Of a stretch of DNA of 41,609 nt, positions 12,495 to 39,652 are shown piece after piece. The position numbers were made by a program, and so were the translations under genes. Position 1 is the stretch's first letter; each line of letters starts with the position of its first letter. The stretch comes from Gammaproteobacteria bacterium (GTDB lineage Bacteria; Pseudomonadota; Gammaproteobacteria; Pseudomonadales; Azotimanducaceae): contig JABJED010000028.1 in the NCBI GenBank assembly GCA_018665025.1, positions 1 to 41,609 of the forward strand, written 5' to 3'. Under the pieces are notes generated by a model. The model did not search any database, was not told where the DNA came from, and was given only the letters and a program-made list of their open reading frames with translations.

Positions 12495-14051
12495 ATGACT
12501 GACGGCTCCCCAACCATTACCCCTTCCATGTCTCTAGTCAGCGGAATAAGAGCGTCGATGTTGGCCAACCCGGAAAAGGTCGCCATAACAGATTCTCAGG
12601 GCTCACGAAGTTATGCGGAACTTGTTTTTCGAATCGACAAGATCACGAGCGGTTTCATTACTGATCTAAAACTGCCTGTTGGTTCTCACGCCGCCATTGT
12701 CGCCAACAATTCAATAGAGTATCTGGAAGTTGTCTGTGGCGCCTCACAGGCGGGTGTGGCTCTGGCAACCATTAACCCCGCACTGAGCGCTGATGAAATC
12801 ACGGCCATATGTGATGATGCAGATGCTCGGGTCTTGTTTACAGATGACGAGAACTTCGAGCGATTACAGAATCGTTCCTTCCACAGTATCGAAAAGATCA
12901 TCAAGCTCGGCTCCGGGATCGATTCCTGGGTGAGCAACGCAGATTCAACAACCGCTTTCCCCGAGGTGTCTGAAAGAGATGTATTCACCATCCCATACAC
13001 CTCAGGCACCACCGGACGCCCGAAGGGGGTGCTGGTTTCACATCGATCTAGAGTTTTAACGCTGCATGGGATGGCGTTGGAATACGGATGTTATTCAAAC
13101 AATGACCGATTTTTAGCCATTGCGCCATTATGTCATGGTGCAGGTATGGTCTTCGGTCTCGCTTCGTTGTATTTCGGTGGCTACGTGCGACTGATGAACC
13201 GGTTTGATCCTGAGAGCGTTCTATCGATTCTGCATCACGACAGCATGACTGGCGTCTTCATGGTGCCTACACACTTCCATGGCATCTTTGCACTAAGCGC
13301 TGGTGTCCTTGATAAATATCGCGACACAAACCTTCGCTCAATTATTTCCAATGCAGCACCTTTGCCACAAGTCACCAAGGAACGGATCATTGACTATTTT
13401 GGCGATAATCTACTGCATGAAACCTATGGCTCTACCGAAGCAGGCATCGTCAGCAATCTTCCCCCCGCAGATCAACTAAACAAACGCAACTGCGTCGGAC
13501 TCCCTTTCGACTCAACCCGGATAAGCCTGAGAAACGAATCCGGCGACGAGTGCGGACCCGAGGAGCCGGGCGAACTATTTTCGATCAGCCCCTATCTTTT
13601 TAATGGTTACTGGAAAAATCAAGCAGAAACCGACGCCGCCTTCATGGACGGATGGGTCAGTGTCGGTGATATCGCGCGAAGAGATGCCGACGGCTATCTG
13701 TATATCATTGATCGCAAAAAAGATATGGTCATCTCGGGCGGCACCAATATCTACCCGCGAGAAATTGAAAACGTTCTAGAGCAGCACCCGACGGTCATCG
13801 AAGCCGGGGTTGTTGGAGTCCCTGATGAAAAATGGGGGGAACGCCTAAAAGCTTTTGTCGTCATTTCAGATGAGGGAAGTTTTGCCCCTGATCAGATCGC
13901 TTCTTTTGCGGAATCCCGTCTCGCAAAATACAAAGTGCCGAAAGATTTTGAGGTCATATCCCGACTGCCACGCAATGCCAATGGTAAAGTCCTAAAGGCG
14001 ATCCTGCGTGCACGCACCCAGCCGTCGATAAAAGACGAAGAAGTCAGCTAG
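12495..14051 (+). CDS. AMP-forming acyl-CoA synthetase / ligase
   Basis: This 518-aa ANL-superfamily enzyme activates a carboxylic acid with ATP and CoA. All core motifs are present: P-loop YTSGTTGRPKG, YGSTEAG, the WVSVGDIARRDADGYLY hinge region, DRKKDMVISGGTNIYPREIE, and C-terminal NGKVLK with the catalytic Lys. Similarity is to medium-chain/aromatic acid ligases; I cannot fix the acid. It follows the amidohydrolase by 8 nt, so the two form one operon. Its TAG stop overlaps the CoA-transferase stop on the other strand in the tetranucleotide CTAG. Confidence 0.93.
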   Translation: MTDGSPTITPSMSLVSGIRASMLANPEKVAITDSQGSRSYAELVFRIDKITSGFITDLKLPVGSHAAIVANNSIEYLEVVCGASQAGVALATINPALSADEITAICDDADARVLFTDDENFERLQNRSFHSIEKIIKLGSGIDSWVSNADSTTAFPEVSERDVFTIPYTSGTTGRPKGVLVSHRSRVLTLHGMALEYGCYSNNDRFLAIAPLCHGAGMVFGLASLYFGGYVRLMNRFDPESVLSILHHDSMTGVFMVPTHFHGIFALSAGVLDKYRDTNLRSIISNAAPLPQVTKERIIDYFGDNLLHETYGSTEAGIVSNLPPADQLNKRNCVGLPFDSTRISLRNESGDECGPEEPGELFSISPYLFNGYWKNQAETDAAFMDGWVSVGDIARRDADGYLYIIDRKKDMVISGGTNIYPREIENVLEQHPTVIEAGVVGVPDEKWGERLKAFVVISDEGSFAPDQIASFAESRLAKYKVPKDFEVISRLPRNANGKVLKAILRARTQPSIKDEEVS

Positions 14052-16369: not shown

Positions 16370-16384
16370 ACGACTAACTCCCAT

Positions 16385-20357: not shown

Positions 20358-21725
20358 ATGAATCAAAAAAATAAGAACAGCACTGCACCGGAAGCGATCT
20401 GGCCAGGACTTGAAGCCGGCGTTCCCAAGCCCCTAATGCCTTACAGTCCTGCAATAAAAGCCGGTGGCTGGGTTTTTATCTCAGGACAACTAGCCAGTGA
20501 CTTTAAAACAGGCCTCGACGCCTCTGTCGCCTCGGTGAACCCTTTTCTTAACGAACAACTGGCAGGTGAGTCTGATTTCGTTTTGGGGAACCTGCGGGAT
20601 ACCATCGCGGCCACTGGGTGCGACATCAACAAGGATATGGTTCGAATCTGGCAGTGGTTTGTTTCCGATAGACCGACGCACCAGGAGTTCGAGCAGGGTA
20701 ACAACTGGCCTGCGTTGTCCATCGCGCCGTATCTCGATGTCAGAAAGAACTTCATAGACTCTTGTCCACCTTCTTCGAGTCTCGGTGTTCGCGAACTGAT
20801 GTGGCGTAACACTAACCTTGAAGTGGACATGATCTGCTTTGCTGACGACGATGAGTCGATCACCTTCGGCGAGCCTACCGCGCTTGGGCAACACCACCCG
20901 GCTTTGCGTCGTGGCGACTGGGTTTTTCTTGCCAGCGAAGGTCCTGTTGACTGGGTAAATGGACATTTAACCGGGTCTCAGGTCGATGGACCAACCGCCC
21001 TGGCAAAACACACGTGGTCACACCCAGATCATTGGTATACATCAACAGTCGAAGAACAAACCCGCTATACCCTGGAGAAACTTGCAAGACTTGCAGAAAC
21101 GGCAGGTACCTCACTGGATCAAACCGTCAAGGCGGATGTCTATATCGGTCATCCTCGAGATTTCGCCGCGATGGATCGCGTTTGGCGACAAACATTTCCA
21201 GAGAACCCACCTGCCAGGGTCGTCATTCCCTATATGGGTATGGGCGCAAAAGGCGCTAGAGTTGAAATATCACTAACGCTGCTCGCCGGTGATGCCAGCA
21301 TTTCCAAGAAAACAATTGAAACTTCCGACGCCCCGGAGCAACCAGGACATGAACCTCAAGCTGTAAAAGCCGGCAACTTTCTGTTTTTCAGCACCCAAAT
21401 GGCATTTGATTCAACGGGAAATCTCGCTGAAGGGATGCGCCGACCTGAGAACGCTCCCTGGTATGGATCCCCCGGCCAGAATCAGATGCGTTATATAATG
21501 AAAAACGTCGACGCGATTTCGTCTGCCGCGGGTACTTCTGTCGAAAACATTGTTCGTCGAGCCTGCTTTCACAGCGATCTTCAATGGTTTGCAGACTCGA
21601 TTCAAAGCTGGGCAAGCTACTTCCCAGGCGACAAACCAGCTTCAACAACGATTGGCCTGGACGGGCCCTTTGTTGTATCAGGCGCTAACACGCTTCTCGA
21701 TCTGATCAGCTATGTTCCTGACTAA
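20358..21725 (+). CDS. Triple RidA/YjgF-like domain fusion protein
   Basis: At 455 aa this is about three times the usual 125-130 aa of RidA. I see three Rid-like units: residues about 25-160 (AIKAGGWVFISGQLA), 185-310 (ALRRGDWVFLASEG; QTVKADVYIGHPRDF) and 335-455 (AVKAGNFLFFSTQMA; NIVRRACFHSDLQWF). Rid proteins hydrolyse reactive enamines/imines or act as ligand-binding trimers; a covalent triple could mimic the trimer in one chain. The deaminase Arg of RidA is not clearly conserved in any unit, so catalysis may differ. It lies between two beta-hydroxyacid/imine-type dehydrogenases in the TetR operon. Confidence 0.85.
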   Translation: MNQKNKNSTAPEAIWPGLEAGVPKPLMPYSPAIKAGGWVFISGQLASDFKTGLDASVASVNPFLNEQLAGESDFVLGNLRDTIAATGCDINKDMVRIWQWFVSDRPTHQEFEQGNNWPALSIAPYLDVRKNFIDSCPPSSSLGVRELMWRNTNLEVDMICFADDDESITFGEPTALGQHHPALRRGDWVFLASEGPVDWVNGHLTGSQVDGPTALAKHTWSHPDHWYTSTVEEQTRYTLEKLARLAETAGTSLDQTVKADVYIGHPRDFAAMDRVWRQTFPENPPARVVIPYMGMGAKGARVEISLTLLAGDASISKKTIETSDAPEQPGHEPQAVKAGNFLFFSTQMAFDSTGNLAEGMRRPENAPWYGSPGQNQMRYIMKNVDAISSAAGTSVENIVRRACFHSDLQWFADSIQSWASYFPGDKPASTTIGLDGPFVVSGANTLLDLISYVPD

Positions 21726-24387: not shown

Positions 24388-25824
24388 TCAGACCCAGTTG
24401 AAGCGGCTACGAATGCGTGAAAACCGACGCGTATTGACTTCGTCGAATAGCGTATCTTGCAGTTCATCCAGATTCTTTACTGCCTCATAACGATCAATCG
24501 ATACATGTTCACCGTTTTCAACAAGGGTACGCCCACGAACCATGACTCGGTGAATTGATTCTGGACTTGGCCCGTTGCCATAAACCAGGTTAGGCAGGAT
24601 TGCCGAGGGTGGAGAAAGGTGGGTCTCGCCACGTCGATCGATCATCAAGACATCTGCGTCCTTCCCAGATTCCAGCGACCCTATTCGGTCATCCATCATC
24701 AAAGCCTTGGCACCACCTATCGTAGCAAGTTCTAAGGCCTGCTCCGCACTGCCATAAAGTACTTCCTCACCCGTCCACTTAGAGGTTTCATCACTGACCC
24801 GACGGCGATATTCGTCACCCAATCGTTGCCCTGTCAGAAAACTACGCATACCAGTCCACAAGTCATGTCCGTAGGCCACGACCGGTCCATCAAGGCCGAG
24901 GCCACAAGTTACGCCGCGGTCAAGAAATTGGCGGGCATCGAAACTCACCAGACCAAGAACTTGTTCCATATCAGGAACGAGCGCGATAGTCGCACCCCGA
25001 TTAGCAATCAACTCCGCCTCGCCGGGCCTGAGGTTTTGTGCATGCCCCGCTATAACGTTAGGCCCGAGGATACCTGCGTCGTCCAGCCATTCGAAGGAAC
25101 CGCCTTCCCAGCCACGTCTCTTAGCTAAGTATTTTTGATCAAAGACCGCTGGCGCATGAATATCAAACTGCCTGTTGTTGAGGTCGGTCCACTCCCACAA
25201 TTCCTTCAATTGATCCGGCTCGCAATAAGTAATGCCAATGGTTGAGGCCGTGACTGAAATGAGATCGTCTTCCCATTGGGCTTTGACGCGCTCTGTCTCA
25301 GCCAGGCCAACATCCAGATCCTCCCGGAACCCTTCAGGCACTGCATCCTTGTCGTTAATGGTCAAACGGGCCATTCGGCATCGTATGCCCGCATCTTTGA
25401 CAGCCGCGAGAACACCATCGATGGATCGTTTATGTACATGTGTAAAGTGATCATCCGTGGTTGTCGTTACACCCCGTCGTACCAGATCAAGAATCGGCGG
25501 CATGGCGGAAACGTAAGAGCGCTCTTCATCACAGGCGCCTGTCATTGGGTAGTAAAAGCCAAAGAAACGTTCTTCAAAGGTGGTACCTTCGGCCATTCCT
25601 CGCATGCATCCCTGTACCAGGTGCGCGTGAGCATTGACCAAACCTGGCATGACAATGAAACCATCACCACCGGTTTCTTCTTCGCCGATAAACTCGCAAC
25701 TGTCGTTGGTGCCGGCACCAACGACCAAACCATCCTTTATCGCCAGATAGCCATCCGTATAGACATCTCTGTCCGGATTCATCGTGATCACCATGCCACG
25801 TAATAACAGATCACACTTTTTCAT
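24388..25824 (-). CDS. Amidohydrolase, deaminase/chlorohydrolase type (TrzN/AtzA/cytosine-deaminase-like)
   Basis: This 478-aa metal-dependent hydrolase of the amidohydrolase_1 group has the metal motif NAHAHLVQG (His66 and His68), FDIHAPAVF, GHAQNLRPGE and GLGLDGPV (metal Asp). The C-terminal small domain carries RIGSLESGKDADVLMIDRRG. The family removes amino or chloro groups from N-heterocycles (s-triazines, guanine, methylthioadenosine). GGAGG precedes the ATG. It lies 52 nt behind the HMGL-like gene, probably the last gene of the minus-strand cluster. Deamination of a ring amino/imino group before ring opening is plausible. Confidence 0.9.
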   Translation of the reverse strand: MKKCDLLLRGMVITMNPDRDVYTDGYLAIKDGLVVGAGTNDSCEFIGEEETGGDGFIVMPGLVNAHAHLVQGCMRGMAEGTTFEERFFGFYYPMTGACDEERSYVSAMPPILDLVRRGVTTTTDDHFTHVHKRSIDGVLAAVKDAGIRCRMARLTINDKDAVPEGFREDLDVGLAETERVKAQWEDDLISVTASTIGITYCEPDQLKELWEWTDLNNRQFDIHAPAVFDQKYLAKRRGWEGGSFEWLDDAGILGPNVIAGHAQNLRPGEAELIANRGATIALVPDMEQVLGLVSFDARQFLDRGVTCGLGLDGPVVAYGHDLWTGMRSFLTGQRLGDEYRRRVSDETSKWTGEEVLYGSAEQALELATIGGAKALMMDDRIGSLESGKDADVLMIDRRGETHLSPPSAILPNLVYGNGPSPESIHRVMVRGRTLVENGEHVSIDRYEAVKNLDELQDTLFDEVNTRRFSRIRSRFNWV

Positions 25825-25876
25825 ACTTCCTCCCGTGCCGCACTAATCGATGTAGACCTAATCGACGCTGCCGGCT

Positions 25877-26788
25877 CTAACCAGTAGCGACGTCAGGAAA
25901 AATCCCTGCCTTCGGTAACATTGCCGGTAATTCCCGACCAAGCTCCTGTTCGAGCCACTGGCTGGTTTCAACAATTTTCTGCAGAGACAGTCCGGTTTCC
26001 ACACCAGAGCGGTCCAGCATATAAATCAGATCATCTGTCGGTATGTTGCCCGTGGCTTTGGGTGCAAACGGGCACCCGCCAATACCTGCAATACTAGAAT
26101 CGATGTAATCAACGCCTGCATCAACAGCAGCATAGGCATTGGCAAGTCCAACATTGCGCGTGTTATGGAGGTGCATACGGAGCGGCACTTCACCAAAATG
26201 ATTTCTAAGTTCACCGACAAGATCGGTTAACTGGTTCGGAACTGCGACACCGATACTGTCGGCAATACCCAGCTCAGCGGGTTCAGCTTCCATGAGCCTC
26301 TTGGCAATTTCAACAACCCGCGCTACCGATACCTCTCCTTCGTAGGGGCAACCAAAAGCAGCAGAGATCATGACATTCGCTACTTTACCATTGGCTTTGG
26401 CTCGCGCTGCAATTTTTAACCAAGCCTTAACTGAATCGTTAGTCGGAACACCCTGGTTACGCTGATTGTAAGTATCAGTTGCAACCACGACCATGCCAAT
26501 TTCATGGACGCGGGTTTCAAGAGCCCTGTCGAGGCCTCGCTCATTCATCAGTAGACCAATATATGAAACTCCTTCAATTATTGGCAGCGCCGCCAATAAT
26601 TCCTCAGAATCTGCCATCTGCGGTACTTTTTTGGGATTGACAAAACTTGCGACTTCCAGCCGGGTGATGCCCGCATCAACTGCGCGCGCAATAAACTCCA
26701 ACTTACTTGCCGTCGACAGCACCTCCGGCTCACTTTGCAAGCCATCACGTGGACTGACTTCAACGATAGATACTTTCTTCTGACTCAT
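25877..26788 (-). CDS. Hydroxymethylglutaryl-CoA lyase-like enzyme
   Basis: This 303-aa TIM-barrel lyase of the HMGL/DRE-TIM group has VEVSPRDGLQSEP (metal and catalytic DRE-type motif), MRMHLHNTRN-type metal histidines (RMHLHNT) and the active-site loop IAGIGGCPFAPKATGN with the essential Cys. The family splits HMG-CoA to acetyl-CoA and acetoacetate, and relatives split other 3-hydroxy-3-methyl acyl-CoAs. ATG 26788 has GGAG 9 nt upstream, inside the end of the isochorismatase gene. Next to a CoA-transferase in this cluster, it probably ends the carbon-skeleton branch. True HMG-CoA from leucine is the alternative. Confidence 0.93.
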   Translation of the reverse strand: MSQKKVSIVEVSPRDGLQSEPEVLSTASKLEFIARAVDAGITRLEVASFVNPKKVPQMADSEELLAALPIIEGVSYIGLLMNERGLDRALETRVHEIGMVVVATDTYNQRNQGVPTNDSVKAWLKIAARAKANGKVANVMISAAFGCPYEGEVSVARVVEIAKRLMEAEPAELGIADSIGVAVPNQLTDLVGELRNHFGEVPLRMHLHNTRNVGLANAYAAVDAGVDYIDSSIAGIGGCPFAPKATGNIPTDDLIYMLDRSGVETGLSLQKIVETSQWLEQELGRELPAMLPKAGIFPDVATG

Positions 26789-26791
26789 AAT

Positions 26792-27424
26792 CTAGTGCTC
26801 CTCAACCAGGCTGCGAAGGTAATCGCATACTTGTATTTCACTGACAACGTCAGCGTACTTGGCGTTCATATCAAAAAGGTTTGCCTCATGCGGTGCAGCG
26901 TGGCGATCACCGCACGCATCTGCAACAACAATCGGAATAAATCCATTACACATGGCATCAACACAGGTAGCTCTCACGCAGCCACTCGTCGTCAGGCCTG
27001 TAATTAATAACGTGTCGACGCCCTCTTCGTTCAACACCGAGGCCAACGTCGTGCCAAAAAATGCGCTGGGATACTGCTTCGAAATAACCATTTCGTTGTC
27101 CGCAGGCTGCAGACCTTTCGGCCAGTTTCCCATCGGATTACCCGCTATAAAGTTCTTCAACACCGGCGCTTTGGTAAAAAAAACTCCACCATCACTGCCA
27201 TCTTGCTGGTAGACCACATTGCTATAGAGAACTTTAATGCCCGCTTCTCGAGCCAGGTCACGTATCCGCAATGCTGACGCCAATTCATCTTCGACCCCTG
27301 CATACATCTCACAGTCTTTGTCAAAATAGGCCTGTACAAAATCAACCAGAATCAGTGCTGACCGTTCTCCATACCCAAGGCTACCATTATAAAGTGAATA
27401 GCTATCTTTCAGATCTTCAGTCAA
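26792..27424 (-). CDS. Isochorismatase-family cysteine amidohydrolase (N-carbamoylsarcosine amidase/maleamidase-like)
   Basis: This 210-aa cysteine hydrolase keeps the catalytic triad of the family: Asp in LILVDFVQAYFD, Lys in VISKQYPSAFFG and Cys in LTTSGCVRATCVDAM. The N-terminal GYGERSALILVDF pattern is typical of N-carbamoylsarcosine amidase, maleamate amidase and ureidoacrylate hydrolase relatives and not of true isochorismatases. It releases ammonia (and CO2 from carbamoyl groups) from a linear amide. The start is TTG overlapping the GntR stop by 8 nt. Three nt separate it from the HMGL-like gene. Its place behind HyuAB fits hydrolysis of the ring-opened product. Confidence 0.88.
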   Translation of the reverse strand: MTEDLKDSYSLYNGSLGYGERSALILVDFVQAYFDKDCEMYAGVEDELASALRIRDLAREAGIKVLYSNVVYQQDGSDGGVFFTKAPVLKNFIAGNPMGNWPKGLQPADNEMVISKQYPSAFFGTTLASVLNEEGVDTLLITGLTTSGCVRATCVDAMCNGFIPIVVADACGDRHAAPHEANLFDMNAKYADVVSEIQVCDYLRSLVEEH

Positions 27425-28190
27425 TGCTCATCACCATGGCGTATTGATAACGCTGCGGGTTGTAAAGACCATCGAGAATGTCAACGACGGTACCATCTGC
27501 TACTCGGCCCAATCGTCTAACCGCCAATAAGGCTGCACCGGGCATCAATTCCAGCGCTTGCGCTATATTGGGTTCAGCATTTTCTGCACTCAAATTCTGA
27601 TGCATTTCTGTCAGGTTAATTCCGTTTTCGCGAAGAAGCTTCAAGCGTGGTTGTGATTGCAGCAGTCGTTTTGTATAGCCCTTTGAAATACCCACCGTCC
27701 AGCTGACATAGTAGGCGTAAGGTTCGCTTTCTTCGGTACTGCTGACCCGGATCACCTTATGTACCCGATCCGTCTCTGACAAACCCAAGATTTCGCGGAT
27801 CTCTCCTGGCGGCACGACTTGCTCCACCGATACTACGCGAACAATACTGTGTTCACTCATATCTATCAGACTTTCAAGCATGCCTATAAGCGGGCCGTGA
27901 ACCGGTTTCGCCGTAAAACAATAAGCAACGTGAGAGCCTTTGCCACGGGTTCTCGTCACAAGCTTTTCTGCCGCCAGTTCATCCATCGCACGTTTGGCAG
28001 TTATTCGTGACACATCAAACGTATCAGTAATCTGGTGTTCCGTTGGCATCTGACTGGCGTGAGGTATCGAGCCGTCCAGGATCGCCGATTTCAACACAGA
28101 GTAGACTTGATGATACAAAGGCACCCGCGCCATGGCGCTTTGTTGGGCCGCCATCAAATCAGATTTCAACGAATTCAGTAGTTCGTCCAT
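27417..28190 (-). CDS. GntR-family regulator with UTRA domain (HutC subfamily)
   Basis: This 257-aa regulator has a winged helix-turn-helix at about residues 25-90 (PLYHQVYSVLKSAILDG, MPTEHQITDTFDVSRITAKRAMDEL) and a C-terminal UTRA effector domain (VEQVVPPGEIREILGLSETDRVHKVIRV through the final strand). ATG 28190 is chosen over the upstream TTG because GAGG lies 4 nt before it and the family N-terminus fits. It lies inside the operon between HyuB and the amidase and overlaps the latter. UTRA regulators sense small acids, amines or sugars; here probably a hydantoin-pathway intermediate. Confidence 0.92.
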   Translation of the reverse strand: MDELLNSLKSDLMAAQQSAMARVPLYHQVYSVLKSAILDGSIPHASQMPTEHQITDTFDVSRITAKRAMDELAAEKLVTRTRGKGSHVAYCFTAKPVHGPLIGMLESLIDMSEHSIVRVVSVEQVVPPGEIREILGLSETDRVHKVIRVSSTEESEPYAYYVSWTVGISKGYTKRLLQSQPRLKLLRENGINLTEMHQNLSAENAEPNIAQALELMPGAALLAVRRLGRVADGTVVDILDGLYNPQRYQYAMVMSID

Positions 28191-28203
28191 GCAACCTCGG
28201 CGA

Positions 28204-28220
28204 TTGTCTTCTCCAGACAA
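28204..28220. promoter_or_regulatory. Candidate GntR operator TTGTCT-N5-AGACAA
   Basis: A perfect 6-bp inverted repeat lies between the HyuB stop and the GntR start, 14 nt before the regulator's ATG. Location and symmetry fit autoregulation of the GntR/amidase/lyase part of the operon. Confidence 0.45.
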
Positions 28221-28229
28221 CCCATTAAA

Positions 28230-30083
28230 TCAAAAGGTCGGCGCTACCGGCGCTTCCAAATGCGTTTCTTCAAGAGATCGAGCCTTTAACTCTTCTATCG
28301 TACCGCCATAATTGAAGAGCCCATCATCAGTGTGCTGAAGCCGAAGCTCGTTTCGCAACGCATCTGTTGCATCTGTATCAACGCTGCCATCGTCGCCGAG
28401 CACAACGCCATAGCGTCTTGCGCCTTCTCTGGAAACAAGACCACGATCAACATCAATCTTCACCACTGCCGGGTCGCGGGCCGTGGGATCTCCCCAGCCA
28501 CCACCACCCCACGTATTAAAGTACAGGACATCTCCTTCTTTGACGTCTACTTCATCACACTTGGCGGGTAGCCACTCCTCGTCGCCACTCGCACGGACCA
28601 GTAACTTACTGGAACGCATACCGGGGTCCCCGCCCTGAACACCCCAGGGATAGGTCAACCAGCGATCGTCATGTATGCCGATCTGACCGTCAACCAGGAA
28701 TTCGTAGGCCACCGTCAACCCATTGCCACCTCTGTGCAACCCTGCCCCACCGGAATCAGGAATGGGCTCATATTTCATAATACGCAACGGGAAGTAGGCT
28801 TCTATAAACTCATTCGGCACATTAGTGAATCCTGGCCAAAGTGAGTGACCATCCGGCCCATCGCCAATCGGCCTGCCTGGTATGCCACCAAAACCAATCT
28901 GAAATAATTGAAACCACTTACCTTGTTTGTCATAACCGGAGAAGAACAAGTGCGGACTGTCTGAAAAGCCAGCAGCGTTCAATGCGTCAGGTGATGCTTG
29001 GCCGAGCAGACCACCCATTACATCAAAAATTCGACCCAATGCGTGTGTTCGTCCAGACAATGCGGCAGGGAATTTCGGTTTCAACAGGCTGCCTTCAGGA
29101 ATGCGCACATCCACGAGCTCGTAGAAACCATCGTTAAACAAAATATGTGGGTCAAACAGGTTAATGGTGAACGACCCAAAAAACATCTTGAACATGTCTT
29201 CATTAAGATAAAAGTTAACCGAGCTCTTTGCCTGGGGATCCGTTCCCTCAAAATCAAATACCGCGACGTCTCCTTCTCGCCACCACGTACATGCTATTTT
29301 GTAGGGCCCTTTGCCAACACCATCATCACAAATGAAGTCTTCGAAATACTGAGGCTCTTCAGGCACAACGATATTGATAATGGATCGCATGGCTTCCAGG
29401 TTACGATCTAGCATCATCTGCATGGTGGTGCAGAACGTGTCGTCTCCAAAACGTTCTGCTATTTCGACACAACGCTTGCTTGCTGTTCTGCAGGCTGCCA
29501 CCAGCGCATTCAGATCAAAGCGGTTCCACTCTGACGTACGAACGTTATGCAGAATCAGCTCAAGGACTTCGCTTTGCAGTACACCTTTTTTATACAATTT
29601 TGTGGGTGGTATCCGAATACCTTCCTGGTAGATGGTCTCGGCACTGATCGGGATAGACCCTGGAACCATGCCACCATTATCTGACATATGCCCAAACATG
29701 GCAGCCCACGCGAGGTGTCGCCCGTCTTTGAATATTGGCACCAAAACAATCCAATCAGGTAAATGAGAAACAGCGGCATTACACATGTAAGGGTCATTGG
29801 TGAGAATGATGTCGCCCTCTTCAATTTCACCATCGTAGGCTTCCATGAAACCGTGGATAAATGAACCAAATTGCCCAACGACCATTTTGCCGTCCCGATT
29901 CGCAACCATGGGAAAACAGTCCCCCTGTTCACGTATGCCGGGGCTCATTGCCGTCCTAAATAGCACCGCGTCCATTTCTTCTCGTACATTTCTAAGTGCA
30001 TTCTCTATGATGTCCACTGTGACCGTATCAACATCAATAGATTGGAACGGTGCAGAGTTTGTCTCAATGATTTTTGCTGGCAT
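28230..30083 (-). CDS. hyuB: Hydantoinase B/5-oxoprolinase family subunit (HyuB)
   Basis: This 617-aa protein matches the HyuB fold throughout: IENALRNVREEMDAVLFRTAMSP at the N-terminus, GDIILTNDPYM, HLAWAAMFGHMSDNGG, and the Gly-rich end NTWGGGGWGDP. With HyuA it forms an ATP-dependent hydrolase that opens cyclic amides such as N-methylhydantoin or 5-oxoproline; related complexes carboxylate ketones, but the extra small subunits of those carboxylases are not seen here. GGAG lies 7 nt before the ATG. It follows HyuA by 12 nt. The substrate is unproven. Confidence 0.93.
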   Translation of the reverse strand: MPAKIIETNSAPFQSIDVDTVTVDIIENALRNVREEMDAVLFRTAMSPGIREQGDCFPMVANRDGKMVVGQFGSFIHGFMEAYDGEIEEGDIILTNDPYMCNAAVSHLPDWIVLVPIFKDGRHLAWAAMFGHMSDNGGMVPGSIPISAETIYQEGIRIPPTKLYKKGVLQSEVLELILHNVRTSEWNRFDLNALVAACRTASKRCVEIAERFGDDTFCTTMQMMLDRNLEAMRSIINIVVPEEPQYFEDFICDDGVGKGPYKIACTWWREGDVAVFDFEGTDPQAKSSVNFYLNEDMFKMFFGSFTINLFDPHILFNDGFYELVDVRIPEGSLLKPKFPAALSGRTHALGRIFDVMGGLLGQASPDALNAAGFSDSPHLFFSGYDKQGKWFQLFQIGFGGIPGRPIGDGPDGHSLWPGFTNVPNEFIEAYFPLRIMKYEPIPDSGGAGLHRGGNGLTVAYEFLVDGQIGIHDDRWLTYPWGVQGGDPGMRSSKLLVRASGDEEWLPAKCDEVDVKEGDVLYFNTWGGGGWGDPTARDPAVVKIDVDRGLVSREGARRYGVVLGDDGSVDTDATDALRNELRLQHTDDGLFNYGGTIEELKARSLEETHLEAPVAPTF

Positions 30084-30095
30084 CAGCGGGCTCCG

Positions 30096-32156
30096 TTATA
30101 CCGGGTTAATTAAGAGGTTGCCGACCTTATCAACGGTCGCGGCGTGATCCGCCAGGATCAACGTGGTTGAATCCATCTCTACAACGATCGCGGGTCCAAT
30201 GACAACTGCGTCAATGCCTAGCTTACTGCGGTCATAGACAACGGCATCGTGCCACTTCTGATCAACATAGACTTTCGTGTCATGAATAGCTGCGGCCTTA
30301 AGGTCCGTAGCACCCTCACTGACCTGAGACAGGTCAGCAGACAAACTGCTTTCAGCTTTGACAACGGCCCGAATCATAACAATTTCGTGGTCCATCCCAA
30401 GAGCAAATGTAAACAACTGCTCATGCTGACGATCAAACTCATCTGTTAAAACAGACAGTCCTTCTGACCGAAGTCGCTCGATAGTGACAGGCAACGACAA
30501 CTGAAATGCCTGACCGGCGTATCGGAAATCTGCCTGGTAACTGACTTCGTGTTGTTCCTCGCCTATACCATCAGTGATGAATGACTGACTCGCCCGAGCA
30601 CAAAGGCCTTCCAGCTCGCTAACCAGGTCTTCCGCCGATATTGCTTCGACAGAGGTGACGTAGGTTCGCGATGCTTCGTCCTGTATTTGCGTAGTGGCAT
30701 CACCATAGGCACAAAGTACACCAGGACCCGGTGGAACGATTACCGGCCATGAACCACTCAACACGCCTAATGCATTCGCATGCAACGGCCCTGCACCGCC
30801 GAACCCAACGAGCGCGAAATCACGAGGGTCGTAGCCTTGCTCTACAGAAACCAACCGCAACGCACCCAGCATCGATTCGTTGACAATTTTTATAATACCT
30901 TCAGCTGCCGCCATCAAATCGATGTCCATGGCGTCAGCGAGCGTCTGAACAGCGGCGGTCGCGGCTTCTCGATTAATGTTCATGGCACCACCAAGTTTAA
31001 CGTCCGACGGCAGATAGCCAAGCACGACATTCGCATCACAAACCGTCGCTTTATCACCACCCTTCATGTACGCAGCTGGACCAGGGTCCGCCCCGGCAGA
31101 ATCCGGACCAACCCTTAGCGCTCTAGTCAACTCAGGAACAAACGCGATCGATCCTCCGCCAGCACCTATTGTACGAACGTCTACAGAGGGCGCTCTAACT
31201 GTGATGTCCCCCACTTTGGTCTCACGTCGAATTCTCGCGTTGCCATCCTGCATCAATGCGACATCAGTTGAAGTACCACCCATATCAAATGTCAGGATAT
31301 TTTGAAATCCACCACGCTTACAGAAGTACATAGCGCCAGCAACTCCGCCAGCGGGTCCTGAAAGCAGCATATTGACAGGTGATTCGCCCGCCCCTCTGGC
31401 CGAGGCCAGACCACCATCCGACCGCAAAATAGAAAGCTTTACATCATCCCGCAGTCGTTCTTCCAAAGAGGTCTGAAGATTAGCCACATATTTTGAAACC
31501 TGAGGGCGCACGTAAGAATTGACGACTGTCGTCTCAGCTCGCTCGTATTCCTGCATCTCCGGCACAACTTCACAACTGATCGATATTGGAATGTCAGTAA
31601 AAAATTCACCAGCGATCTCTTTGACCTGAACTTCGTGCGCACCATTAACATAGGAATTCATCAGACATACGGTTAGTGCTTCCACCTCGCCGGTATCTGC
31701 CAGCCGCTTCAGATCAGCCCTTAGCGCATCCACATTCAGAGGCGTGATGACCTGGCCTTCTGCATCAAGACGTTCATCTGCCTCTATGGTCAGCTCCAAC
31801 GGTGCCAGCAGCGGTGCTTTCATATAACTGACCCAGCCACCCAGACCGCCAGGACAGAATGAACGGGCCACCTGCAATACCTGCCGGTAGCCTTTGGTCG
31901 TAATCAGCCCGACCTTTGCGCCCTTTCTGGTCAGTACCGCGTTAGTCGCGACGGTCGTGCCATGCATAACCTGAGTGACTTCGCGGGTATCTATATCCGA
32001 TTCATCACAAATACGATCAATACCGTTAAGCACCCCAATTGATGAGTCCTCCGGCGTCGATGGCACTTTGGCCATGTAAGTCTGCCCTGAGGATTCATCT
32101 ACCAACAACAAATCGGTGAACGTGCCACCAACATCAACTCCCAGTCGAAATGTCAT
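30096..32156 (-). CDS. hyuA: Hydantoinase A/5-oxoprolinase family subunit (HyuA)
   Basis: This 686-aa ATP-binding partner of HyuB has the actin-like ATPase signature at the N-terminus (RLGVDVGGTFTDLLLVD), VMHGTTVATNAVLTRKGAKVGL, a second phosphate-binding stretch FDMGGTSTDVALM, and VGFGGAGPLHA. It phosphorylates the ring amide to drive hydrolysis. Length is normal for HyuA. AAGG precedes the ATG. It sits between a CoA-transferase (12 nt upstream) and HyuB (12 nt downstream), so the three are one transcript. A ketone-carboxylase role is the alternative. Confidence 0.93.
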   Translation of the reverse strand: MTFRLGVDVGGTFTDLLLVDESSGQTYMAKVPSTPEDSSIGVLNGIDRICDESDIDTREVTQVMHGTTVATNAVLTRKGAKVGLITTKGYRQVLQVARSFCPGGLGGWVSYMKAPLLAPLELTIEADERLDAEGQVITPLNVDALRADLKRLADTGEVEALTVCLMNSYVNGAHEVQVKEIAGEFFTDIPISISCEVVPEMQEYERAETTVVNSYVRPQVSKYVANLQTSLEERLRDDVKLSILRSDGGLASARGAGESPVNMLLSGPAGGVAGAMYFCKRGGFQNILTFDMGGTSTDVALMQDGNARIRRETKVGDITVRAPSVDVRTIGAGGGSIAFVPELTRALRVGPDSAGADPGPAAYMKGGDKATVCDANVVLGYLPSDVKLGGAMNINREAATAAVQTLADAMDIDLMAAAEGIIKIVNESMLGALRLVSVEQGYDPRDFALVGFGGAGPLHANALGVLSGSWPVIVPPGPGVLCAYGDATTQIQDEASRTYVTSVEAISAEDLVSELEGLCARASQSFITDGIGEEQHEVSYQADFRYAGQAFQLSLPVTIERLRSEGLSVLTDEFDRQHEQLFTFALGMDHEIVMIRAVVKAESSLSADLSQVSEGATDLKAAAIHDTKVYVDQKWHDAVVYDRSKLGIDAVVIGPAIVVEMDSTTLILADHAATVDKVGNLLINPV

Positions 32157-32168
32157 CTGTTTTACCTT

Positions 32169-33392
32169 TTAGATAATCGATTTTTTTCGTAGCGCAGCAA
32201 GATCATCTGCATTAAGCCCAAGCAAACTGCTATAAACGCTTTCATTGTGTTCGCCAACAACCTGAGGACCTACCCAACGAACTTCACCTTGTGTTTTTGA
32301 CATCTTTGGAAATACATTCTGCATTTTCAGGTCTGGCCATTGTTCGGTAGGTGTATCAATAATCGACTCACGCGCTTTGAAATGCGGATCTTTTAGCATT
32401 TCAGGAGCCCTGTAGATCCCGCCTGCGGGTACAGCATTTTCTTCCATCACCTGGTCGACTTCCTCGACTGTTTTAGTCAGCGTCCAGTCATTAATAAGAC
32501 CATCGAGCTCCTCAGCATTCTGCCCTCTTGCCGTATGAGTCGCGAATCGCTCATCTTGCGCTAGCTCCGGTTGCTCAATGACTGCGCACAAACGAGCAAA
32601 AACAGTATCCTGGTTAGCCGCAATGAGAAACTCCCCATCTTTGCACGTATAAATGTTTGATGGCGCTACGTTGGGAAGGGTCGCACCCGATCTCTTTCTG
32701 ATGTAATTGCTGACAGTATATTCGGGTATGGTTGCTTCCATGACGTTAAGCACCGATTCGAAAATCGAAGCATCAATCACCTGACCCTCTCCGGTCTTTT
32801 CTCGATGATGCAACGCAGCCAGTGCGCCCGTGCAAGCAAATGTGGCGGCTATGGAATCTCCCATTGACAACCCTGTCCTACTCGGTCGTCTGTCTGGCTC
32901 TCCGCAGAGGTAGCGCATTCCACCCAATGCTTCGCCTATCGAGGCATATCCCGCACGGCCAGAATGAGGCCCTGTTTGACCATATCCTGATACCCTAACC
33001 ATGATCAAGCCTGGGTTTTCTTTAGACAGTTCCTCGTAACCAAGCCCCCAACGTTCCATGGTCCCTGGTCTGAAGTTTTCCAACACCATATCAGCCTGTG
33101 AAATCAGCTTTCTGGCCAACTCCTGGCCCTCAGGTTCACGAAGATTGGCGGTCACACAGCGTTTGTTACGCGCACAGACCGTCCACCAGAGGGGATAGTC
33201 GCCACGCCCCCAGACTCTCATTGGGTCGCCAACTTCCGGCGGCTCTATCTTGATGACATCAGCGCCCATATCGGCCAACAATTGTCCGCAAAAAGGGCCC
33301 GCAATTAGCTGGCCAAGCTCAATAACACGCAGGTCAGTCAAAGGACCCTTTGCTTGTTTTTGGCTATCGTTGTCGACTTGAGATTCAGTCAT
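32169..33392 (-). CDS. CaiB/BaiF family (class III) CoA-transferase
   Basis: This 407-aa single-unit CoA-transferase has LRVIELGQLIAGPFCGQLLADMGADVIKIEPPEVGDPMR at the N-terminus, ENFRPGTMERWGLGYEEL, and GLSMGDSIAA with the catalytic Asp in the expected place. It moves CoA from a donor thioester to the pathway acid. GGAAG precedes the ATG at 7 nt. It opens the HyuA/HyuB transcript, and a symmetrical AT-rich region directly upstream (33411-33449) could be its promoter and operator. Length is normal, unlike the double-length paralogue at 14048. Confidence 0.93.
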   Translation of the reverse strand: MTESQVDNDSQKQAKGPLTDLRVIELGQLIAGPFCGQLLADMGADVIKIEPPEVGDPMRVWGRGDYPLWWTVCARNKRCVTANLREPEGQELARKLISQADMVLENFRPGTMERWGLGYEELSKENPGLIMVRVSGYGQTGPHSGRAGYASIGEALGGMRYLCGEPDRRPSRTGLSMGDSIAATFACTGALAALHHREKTGEGQVIDASIFESVLNVMEATIPEYTVSNYIRKRSGATLPNVAPSNIYTCKDGEFLIAANQDTVFARLCAVIEQPELAQDERFATHTARGQNAEELDGLINDWTLTKTVEEVDQVMEENAVPAGGIYRAPEMLKDPHFKARESIIDTPTEQWPDLKMQNVFPKMSKTQGEVRWVGPQVVGEHNESVYSSLLGLNADDLAALRKKSII

Positions 33393-33475: not shown

Positions 33476-34756
33476 TTAACGCCAATTGACCGTGCCGATA
33501 ACACCATCGACAGATACGTCCGCACCATCCGGGATTCTCATCGTAGCCTCAAGCACCCCCAGCACCATCGGAATACGTCGCTCTCTCGCGAGCGAAGCCA
33601 AATGCGAGGTGCTGCCTCCCAACTCTGCCACAACCCCCGAAACACGAGGCAATATCTGACTGAGTGAAGGACTCGCGACACGTGTCACAAGCACGTCACC
33701 ATAAGCAACGCGTGAAAGCTCACATTCGCAATTAATCACGCAGGCCTTGCCGCTAGCCCAGCCAACGCCAGAAGGCTGTCCACGGACTCCTGCTTTTCGA
33801 GACCCGGGGTCCGGTGTGCTTGACCGCTGATCTTCCATTTGCAATGGGCGCGCCTGCAACAACCACTGGCGCTTTCCGTTGCCAGTCCACTCAATTTCGA
33901 CCGCAAAACCCATGTGCTCTTCTGCGCGCCTGAGCAATTGTCCGAGCTCACTAACCTGGACTTTGCTCAGACAAGGCTGCAACGCGTTATCCTGTTCAAC
34001 GCGAGAACTACTTCCTGAGTGGTGGGCACAATTTTGTCCGTGCACCGTACGCCCGACGACTGTTTCAATCACAGTACCATCCGCGCCCAGGACATAACGA
34101 TCGGGTACAACTTCACCCTGGGCAATGGCAGTGCCCAGCCCCCAAGAAGCACTCAGTGACATGCTGCCATCGGCCATTCGGCTCATGCCACCGCCAGAGG
34201 TCAATCCACCTACTAGCTCCTGGATGCAGAGACCCATGGCCATATCCAGGGTATCGAGGTTTCGGCTCTCCATGTAGCGTAATGCTCGTGGCGACCATAG
34301 CGCCGCCCAACAGGCTCGAACTGCAGTTAGAAACTCCGCTTCATTATTAAGTCCCAGGAAAGTCTCGTACTGACCGGCAAAGGTGCTGTCTGCCAGATCT
34401 TCTGATAGCGAAGAAGAACGAACCACCGTCTTCGAACCAGAGGCTTCACATAACTCACGCCAGGCAATAAGTAATGGTTTCTCTATGTCCGAAGCAATAG
34501 GACTATCAAACAATCCAAGCCTCAATTTGGACACGGCGTGACGCTGTTCTTCGCCAGACAATCCATCAACTTGACCTGCCAGCTCTAGCAGTCCTATGGA
34601 TTCAAGTTGTCTTCGGTAGGCGGCTGCATCCAAACTGAACCCTTTAGGGATCGGCAAACCAGCATGCCCCAGCATCGCCTGGTTGGCAGCCTTGGCACCA
34701 AACCGATTGGCGTCAATCGCACCAGCGTCCTTGAGATTGGCAATATAGTCAGTCAT
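33476..34756 (-). CDS. Compact PEP-synthase-like protein: ATP-binding plus swivelling His domains only
   Basis: This protein of about 426 aa has an N-terminal PPDK/PEP-synthase ATP-grasp domain (FGAKAANQAMLGHAGLPIPKGF, VVRSSSLSEDLADSTFAGQYE, SWGLGTAIAQGEVVPD, WLLQARPLQ) and a C-terminal phospho-His domain with GGSTSHLASLARERRIPMV, where His is the phosphocarrier. The C-terminal PEP/pyruvate barrel of full PEP synthases, and the large middle domain of rifampin phosphotransferase, are missing. This organisation resembles ATP-using subunits such as one component of phenylphosphate synthase, which needs a separate substrate-binding partner. The start is ATG 34756 with GGAGG. It follows the M24 gene by 16 nt. 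Confidence 0.88.
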   Translation of the reverse strand: MTDYIANLKDAGAIDANRFGAKAANQAMLGHAGLPIPKGFSLDAAAYRRQLESIGLLELAGQVDGLSGEEQRHAVSKLRLGLFDSPIASDIEKPLLIAWRELCEASGSKTVVRSSSLSEDLADSTFAGQYETFLGLNNEAEFLTAVRACWAALWSPRALRYMESRNLDTLDMAMGLCIQELVGGLTSGGGMSRMADGSMSLSASWGLGTAIAQGEVVPDRYVLGADGTVIETVVGRTVHGQNCAHHSGSSSRVEQDNALQPCLSKVQVSELGQLLRRAEEHMGFAVEIEWTGNGKRQWLLQARPLQMEDQRSSTPDPGSRKAGVRGQPSGVGWASGKACVINCECELSRVAYGDVLVTRVASPSLSQILPRVSGVVAELGGSTSHLASLARERRIPMVLGVLEATMRIPDGADVSVDGVIGTVNWR

Positions 34757-34772
34757 CACTCAAGCCTCCTTC

Positions 34773-36023
34773 TTACGAATGTCGCATCGGGTCAACAACG
34801 GTTATTTCCTTAACCGGGAAGTTGGAAATGATTTCGGTACTGTCTTCATGAACAATCAGCATCTCTTCAATCCGAACTCCAAACTCAAGTGGTTTGCCAT
34901 GCTGAGTTTCCAGTGCAAAAACCATCCCTGGTTTGATTTCGATGGGATGATCAAGCGACCAGATGCGAGAAATCACAGGCATGTCGTATTGAGCCAACCC
35001 AAGACCGTGACCCCACAGGTTCGCTGCGGCCTGATCTTCTTCTTCATAGCCCCACACTTCTTTGGCCGACGGCCACTTTTCGGCAATATCCTTTGTTGTG
35101 CAACCCGCCTTAACCGCATCGATAGAATCGTAAAGCCACTCTAGCGCCTGCGCATAGTAATCTTTCATTTCCTGAGTCGGTTCACCTCCGACACAATAAG
35201 TCCTGTAGTAGCAGGATTTATATCCGTTCCAGGTTAATGCAGCCAGATCCATGAACGTAATGTCTCCAGGCAAAATAATGCGATCAGAAAAGTTGCGCCA
35301 GTTGGGCCACGTATTGGGGCCAGAAGAAACGATGACATCTTCAACATCCTCCATGCCTGGCCAAGAATAAAGGTATTCCATGATATGTGCGGTTACCTGA
35401 TTTTCAGTGACTCCAGGCTCCAGGAACTTCATGGTCTGCCAGTGAGCCGCATCACCGATAGCGCCAACAATTCGCATGCATTCCTGCTCGTCCTGGTTCT
35501 TGATGGCTCTTGCTTCCATCATCGCAGTCATACCATCTACCCAGGTGATTCCAGCGGCTTCGAAAGCACCCATCATGTTGATGTCGACAAAATCCACACC
35601 GAGCTTCTCTCCGGCGACGTTAAAACGCTTCATCTCTTCAAGGATTGCTTTGGTGAATTTCTTCACTTGTTCTTGAGCTGCGGGGCCTGCTGCACCCTTT
35701 ATCCAGGCGTAAGAGTAACGGATGTTTTCTGCTGGCAACCATGGGCAGTGACGGTTAATTTGAACACCGATGTCACCCTGCTCAAACAATACTGGCGCGG
35801 CGTCACCACAAAGCAGCGCATAACGAAGCCCGGGTTTTAACCGACACCAGCCTGGTGTAATTGTAGATGTGATATAGCGAACATTTTCATCGTACATGCA
35901 TAGCATTGCACCAAGTCCGTGCGCTTTCATTCGAGCCCGGGCACTTTCCAGTCGATAGGTACGCAGACGCTCCCAATTCACTCGCTCCTGCCAATCCACA
36001 CCTGCAATTCCAAAATTTGCCAA
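34773..36023 (-). CDS. M24-family (creatinase/aminopeptidase P fold) protein with an altered metal site
   Basis: This 416-aa pita-bread-fold protein has an N-terminal creatinase domain (residues about 20-160) and an M24 catalytic domain. Metal-ligand positions read Asp259 (FMDLAALTW), then Cys271 where the second Asp is expected (NGYKSCYYRTYCVGG), His339 (GHGLGLAQY), Glu372 (ALET) and Glu386/387. A substituted ligand means a normal dimetal peptidase is doubtful. Family members with non-peptidase jobs include creatinase (creatine to sarcosine and urea) and the DMSP lyase DddP. It begins the minus-strand hydantoinase-type cluster, 16 nt ahead of the PEP-synthase-like gene. Confidence 0.88.
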   Translation of the reverse strand: MANFGIAGVDWQERVNWERLRTYRLESARARMKAHGLGAMLCMYDENVRYITSTITPGWCRLKPGLRYALLCGDAAPVLFEQGDIGVQINRHCPWLPAENIRYSYAWIKGAAGPAAQEQVKKFTKAILEEMKRFNVAGEKLGVDFVDINMMGAFEAAGITWVDGMTAMMEARAIKNQDEQECMRIVGAIGDAAHWQTMKFLEPGVTENQVTAHIMEYLYSWPGMEDVEDVIVSSGPNTWPNWRNFSDRIILPGDITFMDLAALTWNGYKSCYYRTYCVGGEPTQEMKDYYAQALEWLYDSIDAVKAGCTTKDIAEKWPSAKEVWGYEEEDQAAANLWGHGLGLAQYDMPVISRIWSLDHPIEIKPGMVFALETQHGKPLEFGVRIEEMLIVHEDSTEIISNFPVKEITVVDPMRHS

Positions 36024-36056: not shown

Positions 36057-37001
36057 TCATTCGATGGTTCTGGCTACCCGAACGCCAAAGTTGTAGTAAC
36101 GCGTGCTCTTGCTGTCATCACCGGTGAAATCGAATCCATATCGATTCGCCGAACGCAAATATTTAGGATGATCGTGCCAGGAAGCGCCACGAAGTATCGG
36201 TATGCTGCAATTACCCTGCCGCCAGGCTGAACCGTCCCTCGGCGCACCGACATAATTCTCACTCCAGCAATCTTCGACCCACTCGGCGACATTACCGAGA
36301 ACGTCATGGACCCCAAAAGCATTGGCACGTAGCGAACCAACTTCTGCCGTAAAAGAATATCCATCATGGCAATTCGCCACTGTCCAACCAGGAATATCCG
36401 TCTCACCTGTTAAGTCCGCACCGTTGGCAAACTCACAGCCATCATCTGCAGACAAACCCCAAAATCTCTCACTAATGGTCCCTGCTCGTGCCGCGTATTC
36501 CCACTCAGCCTCACTGGGCAATCGATAATCCTGCTCCGTCACATCGCTCAGCCACTTCACGTAAGCATTCGCATCCTGCCAACTTATACAGACTGCCGGG
36601 TGACGGTCATTTTGCGAATAACCCGGATCACGCCAGCCGAGAGAAGGATCAAGTTCGGGCTCTCTTTTCGTTCGGAAGAAACAGCCGCCAGTGGTGTCTC
36701 TTCTCGTCACACTAACGAATCGAGCATATTCGCCGCGGGTCAATTCGAATTTTCCAATTGCGTATCGCTTCGCTATGTCGACTCGATGGCGCGGCACTTC
36801 GTCTTTATGTTTTTGTTCGTCGTTCTTCGCTGCGCCCATCATGAAACTGCCTGCAGGAATGATGACCAGTACCGGGCAGTAATCACAATCCTGAATTTTC
36901 CCCAGATTTTCATAACCTGCAGACAATTGGCCCTGAGCCATCAGCAACGGAGACCCGACCCAACAAGACAATCCCAGCAGGATCACTAGCCACTTGTTCA
37001 A
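36057..37001 (-). CDS. Exported SUMF1/FGE-fold protein lacking the FGE cysteines
   Basis: The core shows the formylglycine-generating-enzyme fold: IPAGSFMMG, HRVDIAKRYAIGKFELTRGEYARF, HPAVCISWQDANAYVKWLS, YRLPSEAEWEYAARAGT, GVHDVLGNVAEWVEDCW and the end ILRGASWHDHPKYLRSANR. In true FGE this last segment carries two copper-binding cysteines; here those positions are Asp and Leu, so sulfatase activation is unlikely. Relatives such as PvdO/NirV take other roles. A signal peptide (NKWLVILLGLSCWVGSPLLMAQG) suggests periplasmic location. The start is uncertain: the track TTG lies inside the palindrome at 37057, so I use TTG 37001. It is not clearly linked to its neighbours. Confidence 0.82.
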   Translation of the reverse strand: MNKWLVILLGLSCWVGSPLLMAQGQLSAGYENLGKIQDCDYCPVLVIIPAGSFMMGAAKNDEQKHKDEVPRHRVDIAKRYAIGKFELTRGEYARFVSVTRRDTTGGCFFRTKREPELDPSLGWRDPGYSQNDRHPAVCISWQDANAYVKWLSDVTEQDYRLPSEAEWEYAARAGTISERFWGLSADDGCEFANGADLTGETDIPGWTVANCHDGYSFTAEVGSLRANAFGVHDVLGNVAEWVEDCWSENYVGAPRDGSAWRQGNCSIPILRGASWHDHPKYLRSANRYGFDFTGDDSKSTRYYNFGVRVARTIE

Positions 37002-37056
37002 GACGGGAACACTCGCATAAAAGGTCTCTTTGATCGCACGCTTTTGAGTACCATTA

Positions 37057-37072
37057 TTTATCAATTGATAAC
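37057..37072. promoter_or_regulatory. Palindrome TTTATCAATTGATAAC, copy 2 of a TetR-type operator
   Basis: It is nearly identical to the palindromes at 18687 and 39695 (one end base differs) and lies in the gap between the flavoprotein stop and the SUMF1-fold gene. It fits an operator for the SUMF1-fold gene's promoter. Confidence 0.65.
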
Positions 37073-38626: not shown

Positions 38627-39652
38627 TCAGGTGTGATCCAAAATCACTTTCATCCTCGCGTCGTCACGCTCATCGAGCATTCGAATAGCCTGTTCAAGCT
38701 GCGAAAGCGGTAAGACATGACTGATCATTGAATCCAGATCGACGGTACCATCTAAGACGAAATCTATGCAGGCAGGATAGTCACTGGCCTTGGCGGCACG
38801 TGCATTGGTTACCGCCAGCTCCTTGAAATAGAGTTGGTAGAACGGCAAGCGGCCAATTTCATCAGTATAAATCCCGAAAAGAAGTAGCCGTCCCCCAGGC
38901 CTTGCAAGCTCGATCGCCTGCTTGAGCGTTGCCATAGAACCAGCGCAATCAATGACAACGTCGGCCCCTCGACCGCCGGTCAGCTTACGAATTTCATTAT
39001 CAACGTCCTCGCTCGGTGCAAAGGTCTGATCGGCTCCAAGTTGTTCAGCCAGAGAACGTCGCATCGCACTGCCAGTGATACCAATCACCTGGGCTGCTCC
39101 ACTTGCCTTGGCTAGCTGGACATGCAACTGCCCACTGACGCCCAGACCAATCACGACGACTGTTTCTCCCGCCTGCATACCAGCAAGTTGCTGTGCATGG
39201 TGGCAGGTCGTCATCACCTGAATGAGCGGTGCACAGTCATTGCTGATCTGCTCGGGCAATTGAAAAACCGCATCCACCGGAGCACTGACAAGCGCCGAGA
39301 AACCGCCATCACGATCTCGGCCTAATAGGCCACCATTGGGACAAAGGTTTTCCTGTCCTACTCGACAATAGAAACACTGACCGCAGCTCAGCACTGGGTT
39401 TACGATGACACGATCCCCAACGCAATATCCTGCTCCATCATCATCAGCGGCGACCGATTCTACGATCCCAATCATCTCGTGGCCCATAATCCTAGGATAA
39501 GTAACCGGAATATCACCACGATAAATCTTTAGATCAGTACCACAGACGCCAGAGTGCGTAACACGCACCAACACTTCCTCTGCTGAGGCTGTGGCATCAT
39601 CAACGATCGTCTCGACCAGGTCAGAAGGTGCTCGTAAAACCATGGCTTTCAT
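38627..39652 (-). CDS. Zinc-dependent alcohol dehydrogenase (MDR family)
   Basis: This 341-aa medium-chain dehydrogenase has catalytic zinc ligands in GVCGTDLKIYRGD (Cys37) and MGHEMIG (His58/Glu59). The four structural-zinc cysteines are in SCGQCFYCRVGQENLC (90, 93, 96, 104), and a Rossmann domain carries VVIGLGVSGQLHVQLAKASGA. It oxidises a secondary alcohol or polyol with NAD(P). AGGAGA precedes the ATG. It leads the two-gene operon with the flavoprotein, and a copy of the TetR-type palindrome lies 43 bp upstream. Sorbitol/threonine dehydrogenase-like activity is possible; the substrate is unknown. Confidence 0.93.
   Translation of the reverse strand: MKAMVLRAPSDLVETIVDDATASAEEVLVRVTHSGVCGTDLKIYRGDIPVTYPRIMGHEMIGIVESVAADDDGAGYCVGDRVIVNPVLSCGQCFYCRVGQENLCPNGGLLGRDRDGGFSALVSAPVDAVFQLPEQISNDCAPLIQVMTTCHHAQQLAGMQAGETVVVIGLGVSGQLHVQLAKASGAAQVIGITGSAMRRSLAEQLGADQTFAPSEDVDNEIRKLTGGRGADVVIDCAGSMATLKQAIELARPGGRLLLFGIYTDEIGRLPFYQLYFKELAVTNARAAKASDYPACIDFVLDGTVDLDSMISHVLPLSQLEQAIRMLDERDDARMKVILDHT

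Follow-up and report, generated by a model that had tools for sequence, protein, structure and literature searches.

Our study revealed that a gene for a two-domain dikinase-like protein and the M24-fold gene upstream of it form an obligatory pair, far beyond chance, and their products probably make up an undescribed two-part system of carboxylic-acid breakdown. Both genes lie on the reverse strand of the window (the whole stretch of 41,609 nucleotides that was analysed), the dikinase at 33476..34759 and its invariant M24 partner, which has a TTG start, at 34773..36023. Whether the two proteins are the parts of one split dikinase, with the M24 protein as its acceptor-binding subunit, is a question that we consider evenly poised.

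The dikinase comprises 427 aa when read from its GTG start; the next codon, an ATG (34756) preceded by an AAGGAGG site, would give 426 aa. The M24 stop codon is 13 nt from the GTG and 16 nt from the ATG, the latter being the spacing given in an earlier, sequence-only reading of this DNA. That reading had also described the protein as an ATP-grasp and a phospho-His domain without an acceptor domain, and Pfam bore this out: an ATP-grasp domain (PPDK_N, PF01326) covers residues 18–316 (33812..34708; 3e-57) and a PEP-utilizers swivel domain (PF00391) residues 354–420 (33500..33700; 2.7e-17), with about 37 residues between them, and there was no match to PEP-utilizers_C (PF02896), to a rifampin-binding-type domain or to any other. 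Within the swivel motif GGSTSH, the predicted phospho-acceptor His386 (codon 33602..33604, reverse strand) was located by alignment to the catalytic His of PEP synthase and is kept in 53/53 family members, and the rest of the motif is conserved in them save Ser385 (51/53, Thr in two). The ATP-grasp residues R114, E120, Q130, E290, Q302 and R304 are invariant in the same 53 sequences, and K23 is present in all but one, which has a gap there. Thus the catalytic Lys, Arg, Glu, Gln-x-Arg and phospho-His of PEP synthase and RPH are all present in a chain from which their acceptor-binding domain is absent, and residue conservation indicates that the machinery passing phosphate from ATP to the phospho-His is likely to be intact. 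Among NCBIfam profiles the best score was to PEP synthase, although at 236 bits this is far under the cut-off of 598; RPH scored 183 bits and the PPDK models 22–35 bits.

A search for further pairs of M24 and ATP-grasp/His genes, as the sequence-only reading had proposed, showed that the pairing recurs. By tblastn, the M24 gene was found upstream of the dikinase and on the same strand in 33/33 related loci with a long enough contig, and no other gene was constant beside the dikinase in these loci. The gap between the genes is −1 to ~220 nt, or ~1.1–1.2 kb where a Zn-dependent alcohol dehydrogenase gene lies between them (L016, L024, L026, L029, L030 and L033). The loci come from Alpha-, Beta- and Gammaproteobacteria, SAR324 and a Terriglobia MAG. 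When the genomes of the dikinase loci were searched whole, an M24 ortholog was detected in 36 of 38, the other two having the dikinase at a contig end. In one betaproteobacterial family (that of G413, 74 genomes) the dikinase occurs in 40 genomes, all 40 with M24, neither gene occurs in 32, and a clear M24 match was obtained in 41. The sole dikinase carrier of this family without a clear M24 match (G690) has an M24 gene broken by a run of N, and in the two M24 carriers without dikinase (G667 and G672) the contigs stop within or just past the stretch of M24 and alcohol dehydrogenase. Overall, M24 (75–98% identity) was present in 68/70 genomes with an orthologous dikinase, always upstream of it and on the same strand where a single contig carries both. 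In the remaining two (G429 and G434) the sequence breaks off at the start of the dikinase gene or close to it. The proposal of the M24 protein as a candidate partner is strengthened accordingly. Dikinase genomes lacking the M24 gene, the case named beforehand as telling against this partner, were looked for among these 70, and contig ends aside no convincing one was found.

All apparent exceptions to the pairing (G690, G667, G672, G636, G638, G695, G641 and G680, and likewise the cut loci L023, L031, L036 and L040) were each traced to a run of N, a broken reading frame or the end of a contig. No fused M24–dikinase gene was found among the loci examined; long open frames in G678 and G681 were considered as fusions and rejected, as their frame differs from that of M24. 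Pairwise distances of the two proteins were correlated across the 33 loci (r = 0.78, the best of 2000 permutations reaching 0.18), a value to which shared species history contributes, so that it supports common inheritance rather than contact. The M24 protein is the better conserved of the two, with a mean pairwise identity of 82% vs 60% for the dikinase.

Relatives of the dikinase were drawn from one scan of 84,980 species genomes. The orthologous clade comprises 37 loci (L001–L037) at 49–90% identity, together with one fragment (L040), below which identity falls sharply to 34% or less. The orthologs are all of the short type, calculated lengths above ~430 aa being due to upstream in-frame starts or short C-terminal tails. 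A few distant loci reach contig ends or gave unclear reading frames; those readable to the end are nearly all either complete three-domain PEP synthases or RPH-like proteins of ~730–910 aa, or HpeHI/PpsAB-like pairs, with a ~363-aa ATP-grasp protein encoded after a 590–655-aa swivel and substrate-domain protein. Such pairs (612–655 aa plus ~363 aa) were seen at L057, L063 and L065, in Pusillimonas-type and other proteobacteria. As the distant relatives own either an acceptor domain or an HpeHI-type split, the short form without acceptor is peculiar to this clade among the matches. The pair is sporadic, since a sample of 398 Pseudomonadota genomes held a single carrier, the window's own genome. 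Viral contigs were searched for a relative of the M24 protein and gave none.

The M24 partner contains Creatinase_N (PF01321) and Peptidase_M24 (PF00557) as its sole Pfam domains, and 229/416 positions are invariant among orthologs. The metallopeptidase set of M24 proteins (D, D, H, E and E ligands plus a catalytic His) is incomplete. Asp259, His339, Glu372 and Glu386 are retained, the second Asp is replaced by Cys271 (codon 35211..35213, reverse strand; 34/34 orthologs), and Tyr346 occupies the position of the prolidase catalytic His, again in 34/34. Judged by these residues, the protein is unlikely to be a peptidase. An AlphaFold model (pLDDT 90, pTM 0.88) has as its nearest solved fold the DMSP lyase DddP (TM 0.83, 22% identity), itself a non-peptidase M24 enzyme of approximately the same length, although the match to the DddP family model reaches 94 bits against a cut-off of 600. 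DddP keeps all six metal ligands (PMC4108388), whereas the window's protein has Ala261 and Cys271 at two of the Asp positions.

The Cys site is not confined to the paired proteins. It was found in 22/23 wider M24 relatives (33–46% identity) without an adjoining dikinase, which indicates both that the site predates the pairing and that this M24 fold works without a dikinase. Set against these relatives, 39 positions hold a residue that the whole dikinase-linked clade shares and that none of the others has, and many of them fall at active-site motifs (A261–L263, Q345, D347, H375 and W242). Clade-specific residues at the active site, together with the better conservation of the M24 protein, are as expected if it sets substrate specificity. 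A wide M24 subfamily without dikinase (L088, L089, L090 and L139–L157) carries the motif GYxxCYYRT, with Cys for the metal-ligand Asp. Annotations call its members Xaa-Pro peptidase or M24 metallopeptidase, and in L088–L090 they sit with alpha-ketoacid dehydrogenase and succinate-semialdehyde dehydrogenase genes. This subfamily is probably an uncharacterized family of non-peptidase enzymes.

In the mechanism that we propose, the ATP-grasp domain of the 426-aa protein would move a phosphoryl group of ATP to the swivel residue His386 in the manner of PEP synthase. The swivel, having no acceptor domain of its own, would dock on the M24 protein. The altered metal site of that protein (Asp259, Cys271, His339, Glu372 and Glu386) may bind a small substrate, probably a carboxylic acid, so that a hydroxyl or an enolate can be phosphorylated; the phosphate may afterwards be lost again. 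The products would pass to the dehydrogenases commonly encoded around the pair. A split dikinase is favoured because the M24 protein is the only one always available to the dikinase, has a pocket remodelled in step with the pairing and evolves more slowly. The M24 and dikinase proteins of L019 were also folded as one 892-aa chain, with the stop codon read as Gly. Local confidence was good, but the pTM of 0.53 leaves the relative placement of the two proteins unfixed; this fold used 49 sequences only and a single chain, whereas the usual state of such M24 proteins is a homodimer.

The genes that recur beside the pair suggest catabolism of a carboxylic acid, with no single named pathway. Across the 33 loci they encode 2-hydroxyacid dehydrogenases (21 loci), TctC/TRAP transporters (18), Zn-alcohol dehydrogenases (15), homocitrate-synthase-like proteins (9), GFO/IDH/MocA oxidoreductases (8), FAA hydrolases (6) and Tm-1-like UPF0261 proteins (5). 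The last of these, a Tm-1-like ATP-binding protein, and a fumarate-reductase-like flavoprotein are encoded near the pair among L017, L019, L025, L035, L014 and L009. L019 and L009 also carry a gene for a TIM-barrel protein annotated as 'phosphoenolpyruvate hydrolase-like' (PF09370), in L019 directly after the dikinase, and this protein could act on an enol phosphate. The Zn-dependent alcohol dehydrogenase of the window lies at 38627..39652 on the reverse strand and has a relative within 6 kb of the pair in 15/33 loci; it is a probable, non-obligatory member of the pathway.

This dehydrogenase bears upon the main rival to a split dikinase, in which the two proteins would be consecutive enzymes of a pathway. 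The dikinase would phosphorylate a metabolite, either free or bound to a different enzyme (the alcohol dehydrogenase, for instance), and its product would then be the substrate of the M24 protein as a DddP-like lyase or hydrolase, giving an ATP-driven elimination by two separate enzymes. The closeness of the M24 fold to DddP is consistent with this, as is the alcohol dehydrogenase gene lying between both genes at several loci, and 25-hydroxysteroid kinase offers a precedent for ATP-dependent phosphorylation ahead of dehydration (PMC8449060). However, a swivel dikinase without a substrate-binding domain would need to bind its substrate through other domains, which are not known for binding, and the alcohol dehydrogenase is near in fewer than half of the loci. 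We regard consecutive action as a real if minor possibility.

A different role for the dikinase is suggested by VadK (Rv1127c) of Mycobacterium tuberculosis, which consists of ATP-grasp and phospho-His domains only, phosphorylates itself on a His and interacts with enzymes whose genes lie close by (PMC13400623). By analogy, the window's dikinase would be a histidine autokinase that controls the M24 protein, either through phosphorylation-dependent binding or by phosphorylating it, with no small molecule involved. The shared two-domain architecture argues for such regulation. VadK is, however, reported as a descendant of PPDK with methylcitrate-cycle enzymes as its partners (PMC13400623), whereas the window's dikinase scores as PEP-synthase-type, and neither the recurrent neighbours nor the examined genes of the window include a methylcitrate gene. 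A purely regulatory kinase should also be missing from some M24 carriers, and none of this kind was seen, contig ends aside. Regulation of the M24 protein therefore appears improbable.

The PEP-synthase-like profile score could alternatively reflect an ordinary PEP synthase, completed by a PEP/pyruvate acceptor domain encoded elsewhere and linked to M24 only incidentally, or the remnant of a decaying gene. The window's genome, whose assembly is 87% complete, contains no orphan acceptor domain. Its sole PEP-utilizers_C match lies inside a complete 757-aa reading frame that also bears a swivel domain and presumably encodes an EI-type PTS protein; a separate PEP-binding subunit was rejected on this ground. 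The only other dikinase of the genome is an 867-aa protein with the domain order of RPH. Conservation of the catalytic residues in the 53 members argues against a remnant, and the obligatory M24 linkage argues against an incidental one, such that we consider both explanations very improbable.

The sequence-only reading had also named HyuA and HyuB as candidate acceptors, and here it did not hold up. In the window, a CaiB-type CoA-transferase (32169–33392), HyuA (30096–32156) and HyuB (28230–30083) follow the pair on the reverse strand, and all three are found by the pair only there and in L001 and L002, the window's two closest relatives. HyuA and HyuB thus accompany the pair in only 2 of the 33 other loci and are not the partner; together with the CaiB gene (28230..33392) they are local catabolic genes outside the conserved module. 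That the dikinase works with HyuA and HyuB, activating a ring or ketone so that it can be hydrolysed or carboxylated, is scarcely credible, as these genes, although on the same strand a few genes downstream in those three loci, encoding ATP-using enzymes and lying near one distant haloarchaeal M24 gene, are missing from 31/33 loci, belong to a type that binds its own ATP, and have no dikinase annotated near the haloarchaeal M24.

Other genes of the window were observed alongside these. After HyuAB, on the same strand (24388–28220), there are a GntR regulator, an isochorismatase-type amidase, an HMGL-type lyase and a deaminase-like amidohydrolase, a set that recalls a hydantoin/creatinine-type ring-opening route finishing in CoA-ester cleavage. 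Directly upstream of M24 (36057–37064) lies a gene whose product resembles formylglycine-generating enzyme (FGE-sulfatase) and has a signal-like N-terminus; it scored best to PvdO, under the cut-off, and its position is conserved only in L001 and L002. Further away, a 455-aa protein (20358–21725) has three RidA (Endoribonuclease L-PSP) stretches in an apparent triple repeat, and a 778-aa protein (14048–16384) has two CoA-transferase family III stretches in a single chain.

Swivel-domain dikinases serve as PEP synthase in central metabolism, as RPH in antibiotic inactivation and as PpsAB and HpeHI in aromatic breakdown, and all of these combine the swivel with a domain devoted to substrate binding. 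The dikinase described here lacks such a domain and is accompanied instead by a particular M24 protein, probably not a peptidase, across dozens of lineages from sea and soil. If this protein is the acceptor, two large families that have long carried the labels 'PEP synthase' and 'peptidase' would jointly make up a new catabolic enzyme, and the annotation of many genomes would be wrong. That the pair represents a third architecture of swivel dikinase, composed of an ATP-grasp and phospho-His chain and an M24 acceptor whose Cys-containing metal site holds an enolate or alkoxide phosphorylated in place, is a tentative proposal, to which we would give somewhat less than an even chance; if true, it would be an enzyme type new for both families. 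A literature search for a published pair of M24 with a PEP synthase or two-domain dikinase gave only HpeHI and VadK.

PEP synthase (PpsA) and RPH have the same two domains and catalytic residues as the window's dikinase, but carry their acceptor domain in the same chain. VadK matches it in its two-domain make-up and in the lack of an acceptor domain in the genome (87% complete for the window's), and differs from it in its PPDK origin and methylcitrate partners, in contrast to a PEP-synthase-type score (236 vs 22–35 bits) and an obligatory M24 neighbour. HpeHI, CreHI and PpsAB are similar in that ATP-grasp and swivel phospho-His functions are spread over two genes in catabolic clusters (PMC12167813), which for the window's pair is a role suggested by its neighbours; they phosphorylate a small molecule, as the window's pair may do. 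In phenylphosphate synthase, CreHI and HpeHI the split lies between the ATP-grasp and the swivel plus acceptor (PMC12167813), and HpeH and HpeI form no stable complex (PMC12167813). This two-component phenolic layout, with the ATP-grasp alone in one subunit and the swivel joined to a RIF-type substrate-binding domain in the other, is absent from the window's pair, where ATP-grasp and swivel are joined and the partner has the M24 pita-bread fold. The likeness to phenylphosphate synthase noted from the sequence is a loose one, since the two systems divide at different points, the window's pair between ATP-grasp plus swivel on one side and the putative acceptor on the other.
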